The notes below the pieces were generated by a model. The model was not told where the DNA came from. It worked only from the letters and a program-made list of their open reading frames with translations, and ran no database searches. A stretch of DNA of 64,000 nt from Pseudomonas flavescens (lineage in GTDB: Bacteria; Pseudomonadota; Gammaproteobacteria; Pseudomonadales; Pseudomonadaceae): assembly GCF_013408425.1 (NCBI RefSeq), contig NZ_JACBYV010000001.1, forward strand, positions 5,270,001-5,334,000, given 5' to 3'. Shown in pieces: positions 42,769 to 52,986 of this stretch (its first letter is position 1; each line of letters opens with the position of its first letter). The translations under genes and the position numbers were made by a program.

Positions 42769-43014
42769 ATGCTGTCTTCGTACGATCTGAACGCTCCGAA
42801 ACGAGCCGCCAACCTTCGTGTCAACGAGGATCTGCTCAACAAGGCCAAGGCTCTCGACATCAACCTCTCTGCCACCCTGGAGAAGGCATTGGCCCAGGCG
42901 CTAAAGGAAAAGCAGCGTGAGCAATGGTTGGCAGACAACCGACAGGCCATCACTGCATACAATGAGCATGTCGAGTCCAATGGCGTGTTCAGTGACGAAT
43001 TGCGGAGCTTCTGA
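42769..43014 (+). CDS. ccdA: CcdA-family antitoxin
   Basis: An 81-residue protein with an N-terminal ribbon-helix-helix DNA-binding part (KRAANLRVNEDLLNKAKALDIN) and a C-terminal toxin-neutralising tail (EHVESNGVFSDELRSF). Both match CcdA. It would bind and neutralise CcdB and repress the operon. A GCGAGGAAAT ribosome site precedes the ATG at 42769. The longer in-frame extension to 42676 crosses the operator and is not used. The stop overlaps the ccdB start by one base. Confidence 0.92.
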   Translation: MLSSYDLNAPKRAANLRVNEDLLNKAKALDINLSATLEKALAQALKEKQREQWLADNRQAITAYNEHVESNGVFSDELRSF

Positions 43015-43331
43015 TGCCGCAGTTTGCCGTTTACGAAAACACCAATCCTGCCACCAAGGCCGCCGTGCCCTTGCTGCTCAATGTACAGAGCGACCTGCTC
43101 GCGGAGCTCGGTACGCGGGTTGTCGTGCCGCTGTATACAGCCCGCGCCATGCAGGGAAAAATGCTGAGAACCCTCACCCCGCGGTTTGAAATCGAGGGTG
43201 AGCACTACGTGATGATGACGCCGCAAATGGCCGGTATTGCCAAAAAACAGCTGGGTGCCAAGATTGCGGATTTAGCGGCGCAGCGTGATGAAATCATCGC
43301 GGCGCTTGATCTGCTCATTACCGGTATTTGA
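43014..43331 (+). CDS. ccdB: CcdB-family toxin (gyrase poison)
   Basis: A 105-residue toxin with the CcdB pattern: LNVQSDLLAELGTRVVVPL near the N-terminus and HYVMMTPQMAGI in the middle. F-plasmid CcdB traps DNA gyrase and needs the C-terminal Trp-Gly-Ile. Here the tail is ITGI, so Trp is replaced by Thr. From memory, the Vibrio fischeri superintegron-type CcdB has the same tail and still acts on gyrase. The ATG shares one base with the ccdA stop, giving tight coupling. It lies just beside the cassette array, on the opposite strand. Confidence 0.92.
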   Translation: MPQFAVYENTNPATKAAVPLLLNVQSDLLAELGTRVVVPLYTARAMQGKMLRTLTPRFEIEGEHYVMMTPQMAGIAKKQLGAKIADLAAQRDEIIAALDLLITGI

Positions 43332-43348: not shown

Positions 43349-43432
43349 GTAGGGCGTATTAGCCGCAGGCGTAATTCGACAAAACGGTTCGCGGTAAACG
43401 ACGGATTACGCCTTTGGCTAGGCTACGCGCCC
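43349..43432. repeat. Imperfect inverted repeat on the ccdB side of the array
   Basis: The left arm tagggcgtattagccgcagg (about 43349-43378) is an imperfect inverted copy of the right arm at about 43401-43432 (cggattacgcctttggctag onward). It is a REP-like doublet of a type common between Pseudomonas genes. A half copy lies in inverted orientation at 47623-47655, on the far side of the array. Confidence 0.75.
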
Positions 43433-43498: not shown

Positions 43499-43963
43499 CT
43501 AGAACTCACCCTGCTTGAGTACCACCGGCTCGATCAACGGCGCCTGCCACAGCTGCACAAGGTAGTGATCCTCTCCATCGAGGCCATCTTCGGAGAGCGT
43601 GTCGAAACCGGAAATTGACAGCCGCACCCTATAGTTCCCTGCCGCCAGAGCGAAGCGCGCTGCATCCGGGAAATAGTCCGTGCAACCGGCGATCACCAGC
43701 GTGCCACTGCGAACCACGAGCGAGGCCTCGGCAATATGATCGAAACTCGCCGGTTCGACGGTTGGTTCCGCGTCGAGGAATTCGAGCGTCACCGAAACCT
43801 CCATATTGCGCAGCGTGCCGACGCCCACCACACCATCGGCTACCGCGAGCATCCGTTCGACGGCTTCAGTGCCCCAAGACTGGGAGAGATCACCCTCGGC
43901 CACTTCATCCTGCAGATAGAACTGGTGGTAGTCGGCGAAGAGTTTGAGGGCGTGTGAGGGCAT
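43499..43963 (-). CDS. ComJ-like protein in the array
   Basis: A 154-residue soluble protein. The N-terminal part (FADYHQFYLQDEVAEGDLSQSWG, then EAVERMLAVADGVVGVGTLRN) resembles ComJ, a Bacillus competence protein thought to inhibit the nuclease NucA; the resemblance was judged by eye and is weak. No nuclease gene is next to it. It is the lowest-coordinate cassette-like gene and has no intact attC beyond its 3' end, where REP-like sequence takes over. An eroded attC-like copy lies upstream at 44061. Confidence 0.6.
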   Translation of the reverse strand: MPSHALKLFADYHQFYLQDEVAEGDLSQSWGTEAVERMLAVADGVVGVGTLRNMEVSVTLEFLDAEPTVEPASFDHIAEASLVVRSGTLVIAGCTDYFPDAARFALAAGNYRVRLSISGFDTLSEDGLDGEDHYLVQLWQAPLIEPVVLKQGEF

Positions 43964-44060
43964 AAGGGCTCCTGATGGGGCTTTATTGGGCGGTTAATAA
44001 TCAGTAGGGCCAGAGTGATTGATTCTTGGATACGCAATCAAAGGCTATGATCCTATCAAT

Positions 44061-44106
44061 TGGCTTCAGTCAGTCCCAGTGAGCGAAGCGAACGATTTTA
44101 GCCAGT
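44061..44106 (-). repeat. Eroded attC remnant
   Basis: The internal part gtcccagtgagcgaagcgaacgattt matches the plus-strand form of the intact attC copies, but neither end has a usable simple site. It suggests an old cassette junction that has decayed. Confidence 0.6.
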
Positions 44107-44201
44107 TTTTATACTTTATTGATTAACCATGCCAGTCCGCTTTGTGGTAGCGCCCATGAACCATAGCCGAACTTTAGATAGCCGGGCTGTTTTGTAATTT
44201 G

Positions 44202-44256
44202 ACTTGCCACGTCCTCCAAAGTGAGCGGAGCGAGCGACTTGAACCAGTTGTTAGGC
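44202..44256 (-). repeat. Partial attC site
   Basis: The right half (agtgagcggagcgagcgacttgaaccagttgttaggc-like, ending gttaggc at 44250-44256) matches the array consensus. The left half has lost the TAAC core. It is the attC that follows the gene at 44260 and is probably inactive. Confidence 0.65.
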
Positions 44257-44259
44257 GGT

Positions 44260-44724
44260 TCACAGCGAGCCAGCCATTATCTGCTTAAATTTACTCAGGC
44301 AGTCTTCAAATTCGTTACGGTCAAAGGTCGATAAAGGAGGCTTGGTGGATCTTTGCCATTTTGTCGAAATACCTACTTCCAGACCACTGGATGCGCTAAA
44401 ACCCCAGCGAAGCCATTGAACGGTGTCTTTAATTATTAGCTGTTCAACCACTAGGACGATGCAGTCAAAGTCCATGTCATCACTACACACTAATATTGGA
44501 ACAACGGTCGAGGACTCATCCTCACTTGGTGTTATACGTGACCAAGCTAGCTTGTCTTCTTCTTCGTCTAGTAGCCAGATTTGAGCCAGCCCCAAAGAAT
44601 TGGCATCTGGATAATTGAAAGTCTCGGCACACCACTTCTCGATGGGGGTTCCGTTTATTGCTATCCACGCGCAAGGGGAATTAGCAAAGCCCGCCTGATG
44701 TTTTAATGCGCTGATGTGATCCAT
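44260..44724 (-). CDS. Cassette gene, unknown (weak immunity-protein likeness)
   Basis: A 154-residue acidic protein with no signal peptide or membrane helix. The middle reads PILVCSDDMDFDCIVLVVEQ followed by VQWLRWGF. This is like the pattern of several small immunity-type proteins (a CxDD strand then WxRxG), but I cannot assign a family. It lies in a cassette bounded by attC at 44731 and a decayed attC at 44202. Stop codon is close to the R'' end, as is usual for cassettes. Confidence 0.7.
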   Translation of the reverse strand: MDHISALKHQAGFANSPCAWIAINGTPIEKWCAETFNYPDANSLGLAQIWLLDEEEDKLAWSRITPSEDESSTVVPILVCSDDMDFDCIVLVVEQLIIKDTVQWLRWGFSASSGLEVGISTKWQRSTKPPLSTFDRNEFEDCLSKFKQIMAGSL

Positions 44725-44730
44725 TCCAGA

Positions 44731-44806
44731 GCCTAACGATTAAGCTAAGGGGCGGCGGCAGGCCGTCCCAGCGAACGAAATGAGCGATTTGAGCGCCTTG
44801 TTAGGC
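44731..44806 (-). repeat. attC site, 76 bp
   Basis: Bounded by gcctaac (44731-44737) and gttaggc (44800-44806) on the plus strand. Its interior differs from the others (ggcggcggcaggccgtccc) but keeps the palindromic layout. The stop of the barstar-like gene overlaps its high end. Confidence 0.88.
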
Positions 44807-45088
44807 ATAAACCACTTCGCTTGCGAGCTGCGGATATTCACCCTGCATTTCAGTAAGGCATTCTTTTAGTAGCACAGCCTCACGAGGTAGGCGTTGAGAG
44901 AACTGCGACCAGCCAAAGAACCTAACTGTGTAGGGCATTTCAACCAAGCCAGTTATGGCGTCCCAGAAAGCGTCCCAGTTAGCACCATACCAGCCCGGAA
45001 AATTCAGCGACTCCATCAGCAACGAGTGCAGTTCTTCTGCGCTAGTGATAGCTCGGAGATCAATCTCTACTAGCTGTACGCGGGACAT
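44801..45088 (-). CDS. Barstar-family inhibitor in a cassette
   Basis: A 95-residue acidic protein. The segment LMESLNFPGWYGANWDAFWDAITGLVEMP is clearly the barstar fold core, with the Trp-Tyr-Gly-x-Asn-Trp-Asp signature. Barstar blocks the ribonuclease barnase. No ribonuclease gene lies in the window, so this is an orphan inhibitor. The stop codon lies within the attC at 44731-44806 and the start is 9 bp from the next attC, a compact cassette. Confidence 0.88.
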   Translation of the reverse strand: MSRVQLVEIDLRAITSAEELHSLLMESLNFPGWYGANWDAFWDAITGLVEMPYTVRFFGWSQFSQRLPREAVLLKECLTEMQGEYPQLASEVVYA

Positions 45089-45096
45089 ATGTTTTT

Positions 45097-45172
45097 GCCT
45101 AACGTTTGGCTAAGGGGCGAGCTTTAGCCCGTCCCAGTGAGCGAAGCGAACGGTTTGAACCAATTGTTATGC
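45097..45172 (-). repeat. attC site, 76 bp
   Basis: Ends gcctaac (45097-45103) and gttatgc (45166-45172). The interior gcgagctttagcccgtccc and gtgagcgaagcgaacg match the array consensus. The gttatgc end is repeated as gcataac at the neighbouring site 45524, as expected for a cassette that carries its own end sequence. Confidence 0.9.
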
Positions 45173-45185
45173 ATTTGCACACGGT

Positions 45186-45527
45186 TTATGCCTTTGTTTT
45201 TGTGATGTAAATGATTGTGCAAATAGCTGCTGCTAGGAACAAATAAGGCTCTATTAATGACGAGAGATTTAGGACTTGCTGGTTGAATTCTGTTGGGTTA
45301 CACCGACCATTAGGGCATTGCATTGGGATGAACGCAATTATTGAGAATTTTGTGAGTTTTGCAATGGCGCAGAGCGTGAGAAAGACGAATGATAACAAGG
45401 CAATGGCTGAGCGCTGCCTTATTGAAAATATTAACGATGCAATGCTAAACAAAGAGAATCCAGCTGCAAGGATTAACAGCTCAGGTGCAAGCATCGTCAT
45501 TGTGGTGGTGTATTCATTCATATGCAT
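45186..45527 (-). CDS. Small membrane protein in a cassette
   Basis: A 113-residue protein with three hydrophobic helices (LLILAAGFSLFSIASLIF, IALLSFVFLTLCAIAK, and YLFLAAAICTIIYI) and a short loop with two Cys in CPNGRCNP. Family not recognised. The start codon sits inside the R' end of the attC at 45524, so translation begins at the very edge of the cassette; the second Met at 45521 is an alternative. Confidence 0.78.
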   Translation of the reverse strand: MHMNEYTTTMTMLAPELLILAAGFSLFSIASLIFSIRQRSAIALLSFVFLTLCAIAKLTKFSIIAFIPMQCPNGRCNPTEFNQQVLNLSSLIEPYLFLAAAICTIIYITKTKA

Positions 45528-45599
45528 AACGTTTGGTTAAGGGGCGGGCTTTAGCCCGTCCCAGTGAGCGTAGCGAGCGGTTTGAACCACTAGTTAGGT
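45524..45599 (-). repeat. attC site, 76 bp
   Basis: Ends gcataac (45524-45530) and gttaggt (45593-45599). The interior gggcgggctttagcccgtccc is a good palindrome. It overlaps the start of the membrane-protein gene and the stop of the EF-Tu-like gene. Confidence 0.9.
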
Positions 45600-45881
45600 T
45601 GCTCGCGACACAACCCGCCCAGTACCCTTGGTGCCGCCCTCCCAGACAGTGAACTCGGCACCTACGGCAAAGTATGACAAGGCCTGTTCAGGAAGCAAGA
45701 GTTGCACAACCGCATAGAAGGTTTCGCCTGGTGCAGGCTGCCCCTCAAAGGTGAGGCGAGCAGACCAGTGCTCCTTATTGATGCTAAGTACCGTGCGCCA
45801 CTCGCCCGAGACTAACGGCCACTGTCTGCCGCCAACGTCGGCGGGAAGTAAATATATATCAGCGAAGAACACAGGCTGCAT
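45594..45881 (-). CDS. EF-Tu domain 3-like small protein in a cassette
   Basis: A 95-residue beta-rich protein. DIYLLPADVGGRQWPLVSG near the N-terminus and the later VVQLLLPEQALSYF and GAEFTVWEGGTKGTGRV match, motif by motif, the C-terminal domain of elongation factor Tu. Stand-alone proteins of this type are known in bacteria without assigned role. It could mimic EF-Tu's domain 3 and bind tRNA or EF-Tu partners such as toxins. The ATG is 5 bp from the next attC. Confidence 0.75.
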   Translation of the reverse strand: MQPVFFADIYLLPADVGGRQWPLVSGEWRTVLSINKEHWSARLTFEGQPAPGETFYAVVQLLLPEQALSYFAVGAEFTVWEGGTKGTGRVVSRAT

Positions 45882-45885
45882 TATG

Positions 45886-45961
45886 ACCTAACGTTTGGTT
45901 AAGGGGCGGGCTTTAGCCCGCCCCAGCGAGCGAAGCGAACGATTTGAACCACTAGTTAGGC
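45886..45961 (-). repeat. attC site, 76 bp
   Basis: Ends acctaac (45886-45892) and gttaggc (45955-45961). Palindrome ggcgggctttagcccgcc is perfect. It overlaps the stop of the gene at 45952. Confidence 0.9.
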
Positions 45962-46341
45962 TCATGGCTCGCCGGATTTTCTAGATACTTTAGAGCCTCG
46001 ATAATAAGAGGTATTGTGTAATTCAACCACGGGATAATAGTCGTGGCGTCTTTTGGGCGCTGGTATTCACCAGCATCAAAAGCCAAGTAAATTTTTAATG
46101 AAAATCCAGAAAGAGGTTCGCGAGATAGTGTAGATAGCCGGTTCATAGCTAAATCACCCTCGGCATATGAAAGCTCCCCCATAACAAACTCTCTGGCAAC
46201 GAGATGCGAATAGGCGTGGCAGAACTCAGCTTCGGGAAGCCCGGACTTAGCTAGGGCAAGCTCTGCTGATCTAGCCCATTGTTCATCGCTTATTTGAGTT
46301 TCATCGCGTTTGGTTATGAGGTGAAGCAAGTCTTTTTCCAT
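45952..46341 (-). CDS. Cassette gene, unknown
   Basis: A 129-residue helical, soluble, acidic protein with no recognised domain. Features seen are a Cys in AEFCHAYSH, a YAEGDLAMNRL helix and a Pro-rich end. It ends in HEPN just inside the attC. Start ATG at 46341 lies 3 bp from the next attC. No promoter is visible, so it depends on read-through or lies silent. Confidence 0.72.
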   Translation of the reverse strand: MEKDLLHLITKRDETQISDEQWARSAELALAKSGLPEAEFCHAYSHLVAREFVMGELSYAEGDLAMNRLSTLSREPLSGFSLKIYLAFDAGEYQRPKDATTIIPWLNYTIPLIIEALKYLENPASHEPN

Positions 46342-46343
46342 GA

Positions 46344-46419
46344 GCCTAACGTTTGGTTAAGGAGCGGGCTTTAGCCCGTCCCAGTGAGCGAAGCGAACGA
46401 CTTGAACCAGTTGTTAGAA
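46344..46419 (-). repeat. attC site, 76 bp
   Basis: Ends gcctaac (46344-46350) and gttagaa (46413-46419). It is very close in sequence to the sites at 45524 and 45886. The stop of the gene at 46414 lies in it. Confidence 0.9.
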
Positions 46420-46770
46420 GGTACATATGGAAAGCCCTTTTTTGCCCTCAAATATTTTTTCGAGCGAACGCTGAAGGTTCTCATGCTCTTGCTCATTCGC
46501 AGTGAATTCAATAACGTATTCTTCATGCCCATCAAGCAGCTTGGCAAGAGCGAAATTAATAATTGCCTTTAAATGATTGCGATGGAGTTGAAGAGTAAGG
46601 TCATCAGTTTTGTGATTTACTTGGTCGACAACCATTACTTCTATCTCATCTGAATTTGGTGCGCGCGTAAGGGAAAAACAATAATTTTGCACGCTATCAA
46701 AACAGTACATTAATGCCATGTCGTAATCAGCGTCATATGGCGATGCACTGATTGCTGCCCTGAGTTTCAT
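46414..46770 (-). CDS. Cassette gene, unknown
   Basis: A 118-residue soluble protein. Residues around MVVDQVNHKTDDLTLQLHRN form a strand-turn-helix pattern seen in several small integron proteins. No family is assigned. The start at 46770 is chosen because it is 10 bp downstream of the attC at 46780; an upstream start at 46875 would run across that attC. Confidence 0.72.
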   Translation of the reverse strand: MKLRAAISASPYDADYDMALMYCFDSVQNYCFSLTRAPNSDEIEVMVVDQVNHKTDDLTLQLHRNHLKAIINFALAKLLDGHEEYVIEFTANEQEHENLQRSLEKIFEGKKGLSICTF

Positions 46771-46779
46771 GCTGACGCC

Positions 46780-46846
46780 TTCTAACGTTTGGTTAAGGGG
46801 CGGCGGAACGCCGTCCCGAGCGAGCGACTTGAACAATTTGTTAGCC
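46780..46846 (-). repeat. attC site, 67 bp (shortest intact copy)
   Basis: Ends ttctaac (46780-46786) and gttagcc (46840-46846). The middle is shortened but cggcggaacgccgtcccg keeps a stem. The gttagcc end matches the core at the high-coordinate border of the array (47264-47270). Confidence 0.85.
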
Positions 46847-46852
46847 GAGCTC

Positions 46853-47227
46853 TCATGTTTCGCTAGAAATAACATGGATGATTAATTCAAGCGAGTTGTC
46901 TGCCAGTAATGGTGGATCGTCTCGGCTTGAGTGAGTAAGGGAAAACAGAGCGCCCGGTTGTGTGTCAGATGGCATTGAGAAGTAGGTGTATAGGTGGTTT
47001 TTTACGGACTCTGAGTAAGTTATGTAAATCTCCGATTCTTTAATTTCTATGGTGGCGAGCTTGCCATGACACTTGGTGTGCAGCGTGGAAAACAAGCAGG
47101 TTGAGCTGCAAAGATCAAAGGATGCTGACGCGCCGTGCCTGCCTTTATGAATTGATCTAGCGACTGTATTGAGCTCAGCTGTCTTGCCGTAAAGGTGCAG
47201 TTCCTTGCTTTTTAACTCCGCAAACAT
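46853..47227 (-). CDS. Cassette gene, unknown (weak Imm32-like pattern)
   Basis: A 124-residue protein. The N-terminal LHLYGKTAELNTVARSIHKG and the C-terminal LIIHVISSE fit the pattern of an immunity-like family (Imm32), judged by eye only. Two Cys pairs are present (in FDLCSSTCLF and HTKC). It is the first cassette of the array as read on the minus strand. Confidence is for the gene, not the family. Confidence 0.65.
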   Translation of the reverse strand: MFAELKSKELHLYGKTAELNTVARSIHKGRHGASASFDLCSSTCLFSTLHTKCHGKLATIEIKESEIYITYSESVKNHLYTYFSMPSDTQPGALFSLTHSSRDDPPLLADNSLELIIHVISSET

Positions 47228-47661
47228 GATTGCTCTCTGGCTGTGGATCTTAAGGTCTTTGGCGGCTAACAGTGATTAGATGGAGTTCTTCATTAATGCG
47301 TTATGGCGGAATTCCACATAACGTCCCTGCTTCATTAGCGATGCAGGCTGAATTTCCATAAAAAACAATAACGTGACACGTGGATATGCAGTGCCCCGCG
47401 TATTCGCGCGACTTGTGTTCTGTGCAGTATTTCTGCCCGGTTGTGCAGGCTGCGAAATTGGTGCGGTGGGGCGAAGTGCACTGCAAGTTCCTTTTGGCAA
47501 TGATTTACGCGTGCAGGCATCCGCCAGCAGAGGGTTTTGACGATAAGAGGTTGCCCGACAAACGGCAAGTGCTTGCCGAGCGATATGCTGCACGTTGCGT
47601 TGCGGGACGGTGCAGGCATGCTGGCGGATTACGACTTCGACTAATACGCCCTACGTAGTTG
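47228..47661. other. 434-bp gap holding the array border, no supported gene
   Basis: The region has a core-like ggctaac at 47264-47270 (array border), a 12-bp-spaced inverted repeat cgttatg/cataacg near 47299-47324, and the inverted REP half at 47623. Several overlapping short frames exist on both strands (up to 105 codons) but none has a ribosome site and family likeness together. An attI site should lie here if the array were complete; none can be named with confidence. Confidence 0.5.
47623..47655. repeat. Inverted REP half on the selO side of the array
   Basis: ggcggattacgacttcgact and the following taatacgccctacg are the inverted counterpart of the element at 43349-43432. Both sides of the array thus carry related repeats in opposite orientation. 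Confidence 0.65.
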
Positions 47662-48171
47662 TCAGTTGGCGTCCCAAGTGCAGTGCTTGGTGCCGTTGCT
47701 GGTGAACAGGTAGACAGTCACGTCGCCGCCCTGGCGGTGATGTGTCAGGCGCTTCGCCGGGAGAATTTCCCAGAGCCAGTCCAGGTCGGAGCCTGGGTAG
47801 CGGTCGCCGAAGGATGCGATGAATTCGGCCTTGTCGATGAAGTCTTCCCGGGAAGCGAAGCGCTCGAAGACGCAGAAACGGCCTTCGATCCGTAGCCAGA
47901 CACGGTCTTGCCAGGTCGGTAGTGCCGGTGTGGCGTAGACGATGATGTCTATCTCTTCCTGCGAACCTTCCATGGCGTCATTGGTTTCGATCCCCAGTGC
48001 CTTGAGTTTGCCGGAAGCCAGGCAGGTGTCGCAGATGCAGTCGATCGTCTCGCGGCCGTAGAAGCCTCCGGCCGAGAACCACAGCCCAGGCGTACTGCAC
48101 AGCGAGCAGGGCGCAGCCTCGGCGAGGCGATAGGCGAAGTTGTCGGGGTCTCTAAAGTAGGGAAAGAGCAT
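47662..48171 (-). CDS. CbrC-family protein (UPF0167)
   Basis: A 169-residue cytoplasmic protein. FPYFRDPDNFAYRLAEAAPCSLC near the N-terminus and two further Cys in IDCICDTC form the zinc-binding pattern of the CbrC family. In E. coli the gene is linked to colicin E2 tolerance through CreBC; its activity is unknown. It follows selO by 10 bp on the same strand, so the two may be co-transcribed. The next feature downstream is the inverted REP half. Confidence 0.82.
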   Translation of the reverse strand: MLFPYFRDPDNFAYRLAEAAPCSLCSTPGLWFSAGGFYGRETIDCICDTCLASGKLKALGIETNDAMEGSQEEIDIIVYATPALPTWQDRVWLRIEGRFCVFERFASREDFIDKAEFIASFGDRYPGSDLDWLWEILPAKRLTHHRQGGDVTVYLFTSNGTKHCTWDAN

Positions 48172-48181
48172 TGGCGCGGCC

Positions 48182-52986
<4,805 letters not shown>

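Follow-up and report, generated by a model that had tools for sequence, protein, structure and literature searches.

The cassette array described here lies in a 64,000-nucleotide (nt) stretch of the Pseudomonas flavescens genome (the window; positions 5,270,001–5,334,000 of contig NZ_JACBYV010000001.1 in assembly GCF_013408425.1, a genome of 5.95 Mb in one contig). The array consists of minus-strand open reading frames (ORFs) with attC sites between them, and it lies between ccdAB (42769–43331) and CbrC/selO (47662–49645). Its right end is, by homology to sequences that lie beside the integrase gene intI, an attI recombination site. The locus is an integron platform without an integrase, more than a group of stray attC sites, and the same platform occurs with different cassettes in other genomes. 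We think it likely that a chromosomal integron lost intI once at this locus and kept attI, and that cassettes were exchanged in trans thereafter. An initial annotation, made from the sequence alone, had described an array between positions 43499 and 47270 as either a remnant of the CALIN type (cluster of attC sites lacking an integrase) or a cluster delivered in trans. With at least two attC sites and no intI nearby the array is a CALIN, but the label undersells it, as the attI site (47270–47325) is retained and had gone unreported. Delivery in trans probably applies to the cassettes now present.

Over 56 nt, the attI site shares 80% identity with the sequence adjoining the broken intI of the same genome, and it shares 79–82% with sequences adjoining intact intI genes in five other genomes. 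For a sixth intI-bearing genome (G122) the match covers 33 nt only, at 88%. The window itself contains no detectable integrase gene, as had been claimed for the flanks: tblastn with two intact IntI proteins returned one match, with an E-value of 0.78, and a whole-genome search with an integrase profile gave no match inside the window. No IntI protein trace was found in the ~340 bp upstream of attI. Integrons that carry intI have a motif ~110 bp upstream of attI that looks by eye like part of the intI promoter, and the window platform aligns with this motif at equal distance. The main integrons also have, in the intI promoter region, a sequence that we take by eye for a LexA-like box. None was seen by eye in the window platform, and no sigma-70 consensus match that could mark a cassette promoter (Pc) was found in 47200–47700.

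A DNA search with 401 bp of the platform against 398 genomes of the genus, drawn from a larger group, matched 12 genomes. Five of these matched over most of the query: the P. flavescens genome itself (G000), G168 (87% identity), Pseudomonas sp. URMO17WK12:I2 (81%; G001 and G120 are this one genome, counted once), G362 (81%, positions 70–397) and G398 (77%). The other seven matched by attI or by a 33-nt arm only. All five platforms sit between selO and ccdAB/YcaO. They align along their full length, interrupted by no more than small indels, and their homology ends at the attI core, CACTG^TTAG (CACTTTTAG in G362). Pairwise identity is 81–96% in attI and 72–87% in the upstream spacer, and falls to 15–35% past the core. 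At fourfold-degenerate positions of SelO and YcaO, the same five genomes are 70–91% identical. A 124-nt block within the platform is conserved at 87–94% across the five genomes, compared with 72–87% for the spacer beside attI. No clear coding pattern was found in this block, and Rfam models at gathering scores gave nothing there. A structured RNA was rejected as its explanation, as a 216-nt stretch containing the block folds no better than its shuffled versions (z 0.35; 116 of 200). In the wider family, the platform without attI matched 3 of 298 genomes, its own in full and two by short arm matches only, and a plasmid source found no match in the plasmid collection. The selO–YcaO locus is array-free in three relatives, namely P. 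seleniipraecipitans, P. straminea (which is without ccdAB) and P. sp. G34. Among 80 loci fetched by YcaO, some of which end at contig ends, selO adjoins YcaO in four, and one of those four has an array.

The extent of this homology bears on two other explanations. Insertion of cassettes at an attG-type chromosomal site that is not a true attI, by an IntI encoded elsewhere, is a published proposal for the origin of CALINs, as given in the available text of PMC8618304. We consider it highly improbable here, as the similarity to attI sites beside intI extends over 56 nt and thus beyond the core, and as ~290 bp of upstream sequence travel with the site in the five genomes. It is also very unlikely that intI persisted at the selO locus in each lineage until recently and was lost separately in each once cassettes had been taken up in cis. 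Loss of intI is common in this group, where the gene is broken, split, truncated or missing at other loci, but one loss is simpler than five because the five platforms align over their whole length and hold no remnant of intI. In the reading that we favour, intI would have been deleted once at the selO locus, before the species split, and IntI from another integron in the same cell would insert and excise cassettes in trans, at attI and between attC sites. The single loss accounts for the common junction, and the integrase in trans for the changed cassettes beside attI.

No cassette was common to any two of the five selO arrays when bodies of at least 100 nt were compared; the only matches, of 59 and 47 nt, lie in flanking tails past the last attC. 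This holds for P. flavescens and G168 despite selO, YcaO and ccdB being 95–98% identical in DNA between them. Related cassettes were found at other loci. The G168 selO array and the P. flavescens main array have a cassette in common at 98.2% identity over 283 nt, and the Barstar cassette of the window is 89% identical to cassette 1 of its own genome's main array. Window cassette 1 has a relative at a different locus in P. straminea (protein 89%, cassette DNA 93.5%), and cassette 2 has a 57% relative in the G122 array. Across 25 arrays with 111 cassettes from eight genomes there were 22 homologous pairs, counting bodies of 120 to 1500 nt in the array parts within the fetched stretches (for G122, 14 attC of an array that continues further). 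Two pairs fell within one array, two between arrays at the same locus and 18 at different loci. As most comparisons span different loci, rates matter here and not raw counts. Between genomes, the pair rates were 2/645 for the same locus and 13/4516 for different loci, so locus does not predict cassette content; between loci within a genome the rate was 5/582. The 20 between-array pairs are not independent, as they form 13 families, two of which supply nine pairs.

The main rival to exchange in trans is plain decay, in which intI disappeared from an old integron that carried a large array and deletions left each species with a different part of the ancestral cassette set, with no loading in trans. 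Non-overlapping leftovers of a large array could yield zero common cassettes, the arrays are short and contain degenerate attC sites, and a fitting integrase was not found in G001, G362 and G398. We nevertheless consider decay unlikely. In each of the five genomes attI leads at its core into a different sequence, and by our reading attI and attC are alike in little past the core, so that homologous deletion would hardly remake that junction. Decay also sits poorly with cassettes that are common to other loci, one of them at 98.2%.

Exchange in trans would need an integrase in the same cell. In P. flavescens the integrase profile found two full-length recombinases that we take for Xer proteins and a single broken intI at a distance of 1.99 Mb from the array. 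This broken gene carries frame breaks and has lost the greater part of its C-terminal region. In G168, the orthologous main locus has the same neighbours and an intact intI, whose translated protein of 323 aa matches the solved Vibrio integron integrase 2a3v over residues 17–322 (E 7.4e-79). Because the only other intI found in P. flavescens is broken, service in trans has probably stopped in that genome, and it may still run in G168. Pseudomonas sp. URMO17WK12:I2 has an intI elsewhere in its genome, which is split, and none was found at E 1e-20 in G362 and G398; G362 has a short 5' piece of intI at another locus. At the selO locus, 9 attC sites were counted in G168, 8 in P. flavescens, 6 in G001, and one each in G362 and G398. 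As a side observation, the main array of P. flavescens contains a DUF3916 gene that appears divided over two neighbouring ORFs (L007, 8576–9121), and G168 has relatives of both pieces next to each other (L171, 12095–12637).

Several observations weigh against a single loss followed by exchange in trans. An integrase that fits the selO attI was found only in G168 and in P. flavescens, where it is broken; none was found in G001, G362 and G398. The split intI of G001 comes from another lineage, as its product is 48–53% identical to the G122 protein, and its attI is of another type. This misfit with the selO attI lowers our confidence in the favoured reading and in the dispersed integron proposed below, and slightly raises that in plain decay. 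The proximal 30 nt of attI average 88% identity at the selO locus (10 pairs), compared with 96% for attI sites beside intI (21 pairs, a set that includes the attI of the broken P. flavescens intI), and the core itself is altered in G362. For homology between the platform and the promoter region of the main intI the evidence is suggestive only, as 1–20 of 300 shuffled sequences reach the score. On the species tree, the presence of the platform needs at least two changes and forms no clean clade, and transfer of the platform between species is possible. In a tree of YcaO, G168 pairs with P. seleniipraecipitans; when YcaO and SelO are combined, it pairs with P. flavescens. Any link between the state of intI and the length of the array rests on five genomes, which are too few for a test. 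Finally, the support consists of sequence comparison with one genome per species, and recombination itself was not observed.

Cassettes joined to an attI in the absence of a full intI are not confined to the selO locus. Three species (G119, G120 and G121) have an attI of the selO type, again without intI, at a second locus, where at least 4.6 kb of common flank lead up to attI and divergent arrays follow. By our reading, this locus appears to follow a gene for a large membrane protein of the RND type, and it keeps a sequence that looks by eye like the intI promoter. A second attI type, that of the split G120 intI, also occurs at two additional loci that lack a full intI: G120, G362 and G398 have one of them, and G362 and G121 have the other, at which a short 5' piece of the gene is retained. 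Related Pseudomonas loci of this kind, with attI and cassettes but no full intI, comprise L196, L197 and L201; L195 and L205; and L198, L204 and L207, over the two attI types. P. flavescens itself has another integrase-less array at ~301 kb (L192, 4850–5400), with a degenerate attI-like site, an intI-promoter-like stretch and two attC sites, and a single attC apart from the other arrays at ~2.518 Mb (L193, 5944–6015). We tentatively propose, without holding it to be the better bet, that integrons in this Pseudomonas group are dispersed: one integrase would serve several chromosomal attI docks, most platforms would have shed intI, and all would draw on a common cassette pool in which position does not determine content.

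The attC sites of the window were scored with a covariance model (R1) trained on 22 sites from three other genomes; those sites had themselves been located by a profile made from the sites of the window, and the model is therefore independent of the window in its sequences and not in the choice of its members. Six full sites of 67–76 nt on the minus strand score highly (E 3.1e-28 to 4.5e-13), so the repeats reported in the initial annotation are borne out as a real array. Four extra matches have E-values of at most 1: two are further, degenerate attC sites (E 1.6e-8 and 6.4e-6) and the remaining two are weak reverse-strand echoes within listed sites. The bottom strand of attC 3 folds better than 200 of 200 shuffled versions; for the other five full sites, 5, 8, 13, 41 and 119 of 200 fold equally well. 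The reported start of the array at 43499 did not stand, as the first ORF (43499–43963) is not a cassette; it was rejected as one because it is present between selO and YcaO in array-free P. straminea and P. sp. G34. The array proper spans approximately 44051–47269, and the reported end at 47270 is the attI crossover. None of eight proteins, those of the seven cassette ORFs and this neighbour, matched the PADLOC defence genes.

Table 1. Coordinates in the window of the integron features at the selO locus and of the genes and repeats that flank them.
Feature	Position	Strand	Remarks
ccdB (flank)	43014–43331	+	PF01845, E 6.6e-36
Palindromic element, ccdB side	43349–43420		arm 43349–43381 pairs (85%) with 47622–47654
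Neighbour gene, non-cassette	43499–43963	-	kept at array-free locus: P. straminea 73%, P. sp. G34 77%
Degenerate attC, distal end of array	44051–44114	-	36.6 bits, E 1.6e-8
Degenerate attC	44166–44256	-	28.3 bits, E 6.4e-6
Cassette 7 ORF	44260–44724	-	154 aa, no family found
attC 6 (of Barstar cassette)	44731–44806	-	68.4 bits, E 1.7e-18
Cassette 6 ORF, Barstar family	44801–45088	-	PF01337, E 2.4e-19
attC 5	45097–45172	-	97.9 bits, E 9.4e-28
Cassette 5 ORF	45186–45527	-	113 aa; relative in G168 main array, 85.5% DNA identity
attC 4	45524–45599	-	96.4 bits, E 2.9e-27
Cassette 4 ORF	45594–45881	-	95 aa, no family found
attC 3	45886–45961	-	99.3 bits, E 3.4e-28
Cassette 3 ORF	45952–46341	-	129 aa, no family found
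attC 2	46344–46419	-	99.5 bits, E 3.1e-28
Cassette 2 ORF (start inferred)	46414–46770	-	no family found
attC 1 (of cassette 1)	46780–46846	-	51.2 bits, E 4.5e-13
Cassette 1 ORF	46853–47227	-	124 aa, no family found
attI	47270–47325	-	core CACTG^TTAG, crossover between 47269 and 47270
Platform upstream of attI	47326–47662	-	spacer, possible intI-promoter trace, conserved block (47470–47593), 33-nt arm; no intI
CbrC/UPF0167 (flank)	47662–48171	-	PF03691, E 7e-12

Family models backed the names CcdB, CbrC and Barstar; the genes that we presume to encode CcdA, YcaO, SelO and MscK were named without such models. The YcaO proteins of the window and of P. seleniipraecipitans are 99% identical. Two 33-nt arms in inverted orientation (85% identical) bracket the array and its platform. 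As DNA, the palindrome on the ccdB side recurs only once elsewhere in the genome, at the other integron's distal end, and a looser pattern of it occurs at two more places with 2–3 mismatches. Related arms are found at the distal end of the G168 main integron (L171, 14137–14169) and elsewhere in G014, G362 and G441. That the inverted repeats are transposon ends is not proven and was set aside, as the ccdB-side element is also present at the array-free P. seleniipraecipitans locus; no target duplication was seen by eye outside the arms in the window sequence. Past the G362 array lies a second copy of the SelO C-terminus (L169, 8668–8871; 67 aa, 76%), as if an insertion had duplicated the end of selO. 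Further along the window, 57256–57364 matches the Pseudomon-Rho RNA (Rfam RF01720) with 46.6 bits.

This locus bears on how arrays without an integrase arise and whether they remain active, which is not settled. A conserved attI without intI, beside cassettes that vary from species to species, is natural evidence that exchange can continue through an integrase encoded elsewhere; if this is true, counting intI genes undercounts active cassette docks. G168, with an intact intI, and P. flavescens, with a broken one, are a pair suited to direct comparison. The accessible parts of the literature consulted (PMC12444791, PMC9892861, PMC8618304, PMC3108266 and PMC8876359), which covers few subscription journals, gave no description of an attI-bearing CALIN that keeps one chromosomal position in several species while its cassettes differ.

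The nearest published systems share part of this organisation. CALINs as described in the available text of PMC8618304 are, like the window array, attC arrays without a neighbouring intI, whereas here attI and its upstream platform are kept at one locus in five genomes. In Xanthomonas, CALINs occur at recurring chromosomal loci away from ilvD-intI and can be mobilised in trans, according to the portion available of PMC12444791. They resemble the window in being integrase-less arrays at recurring loci with intI elsewhere, but that portion does not speak of an attI there, of homology that ends at the crossover or of cassettes common between loci (PMC12444791). An attI-bearing CALIN is not new in itself, as the accessible account of a Shewanella prophage includes an attI-bearing array without its own integrase. 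There, the complete integron lies in the same prophage element, whereas the array described here occupies a chromosomal locus in five genomes of different species. Comparable within our own data is the sedentary chromosomal integron of G168 (L171), which has a related attI and the same attC family as the window array; it differs in having an intact intI and a box that looks LexA-like by eye, and the window platform has neither.

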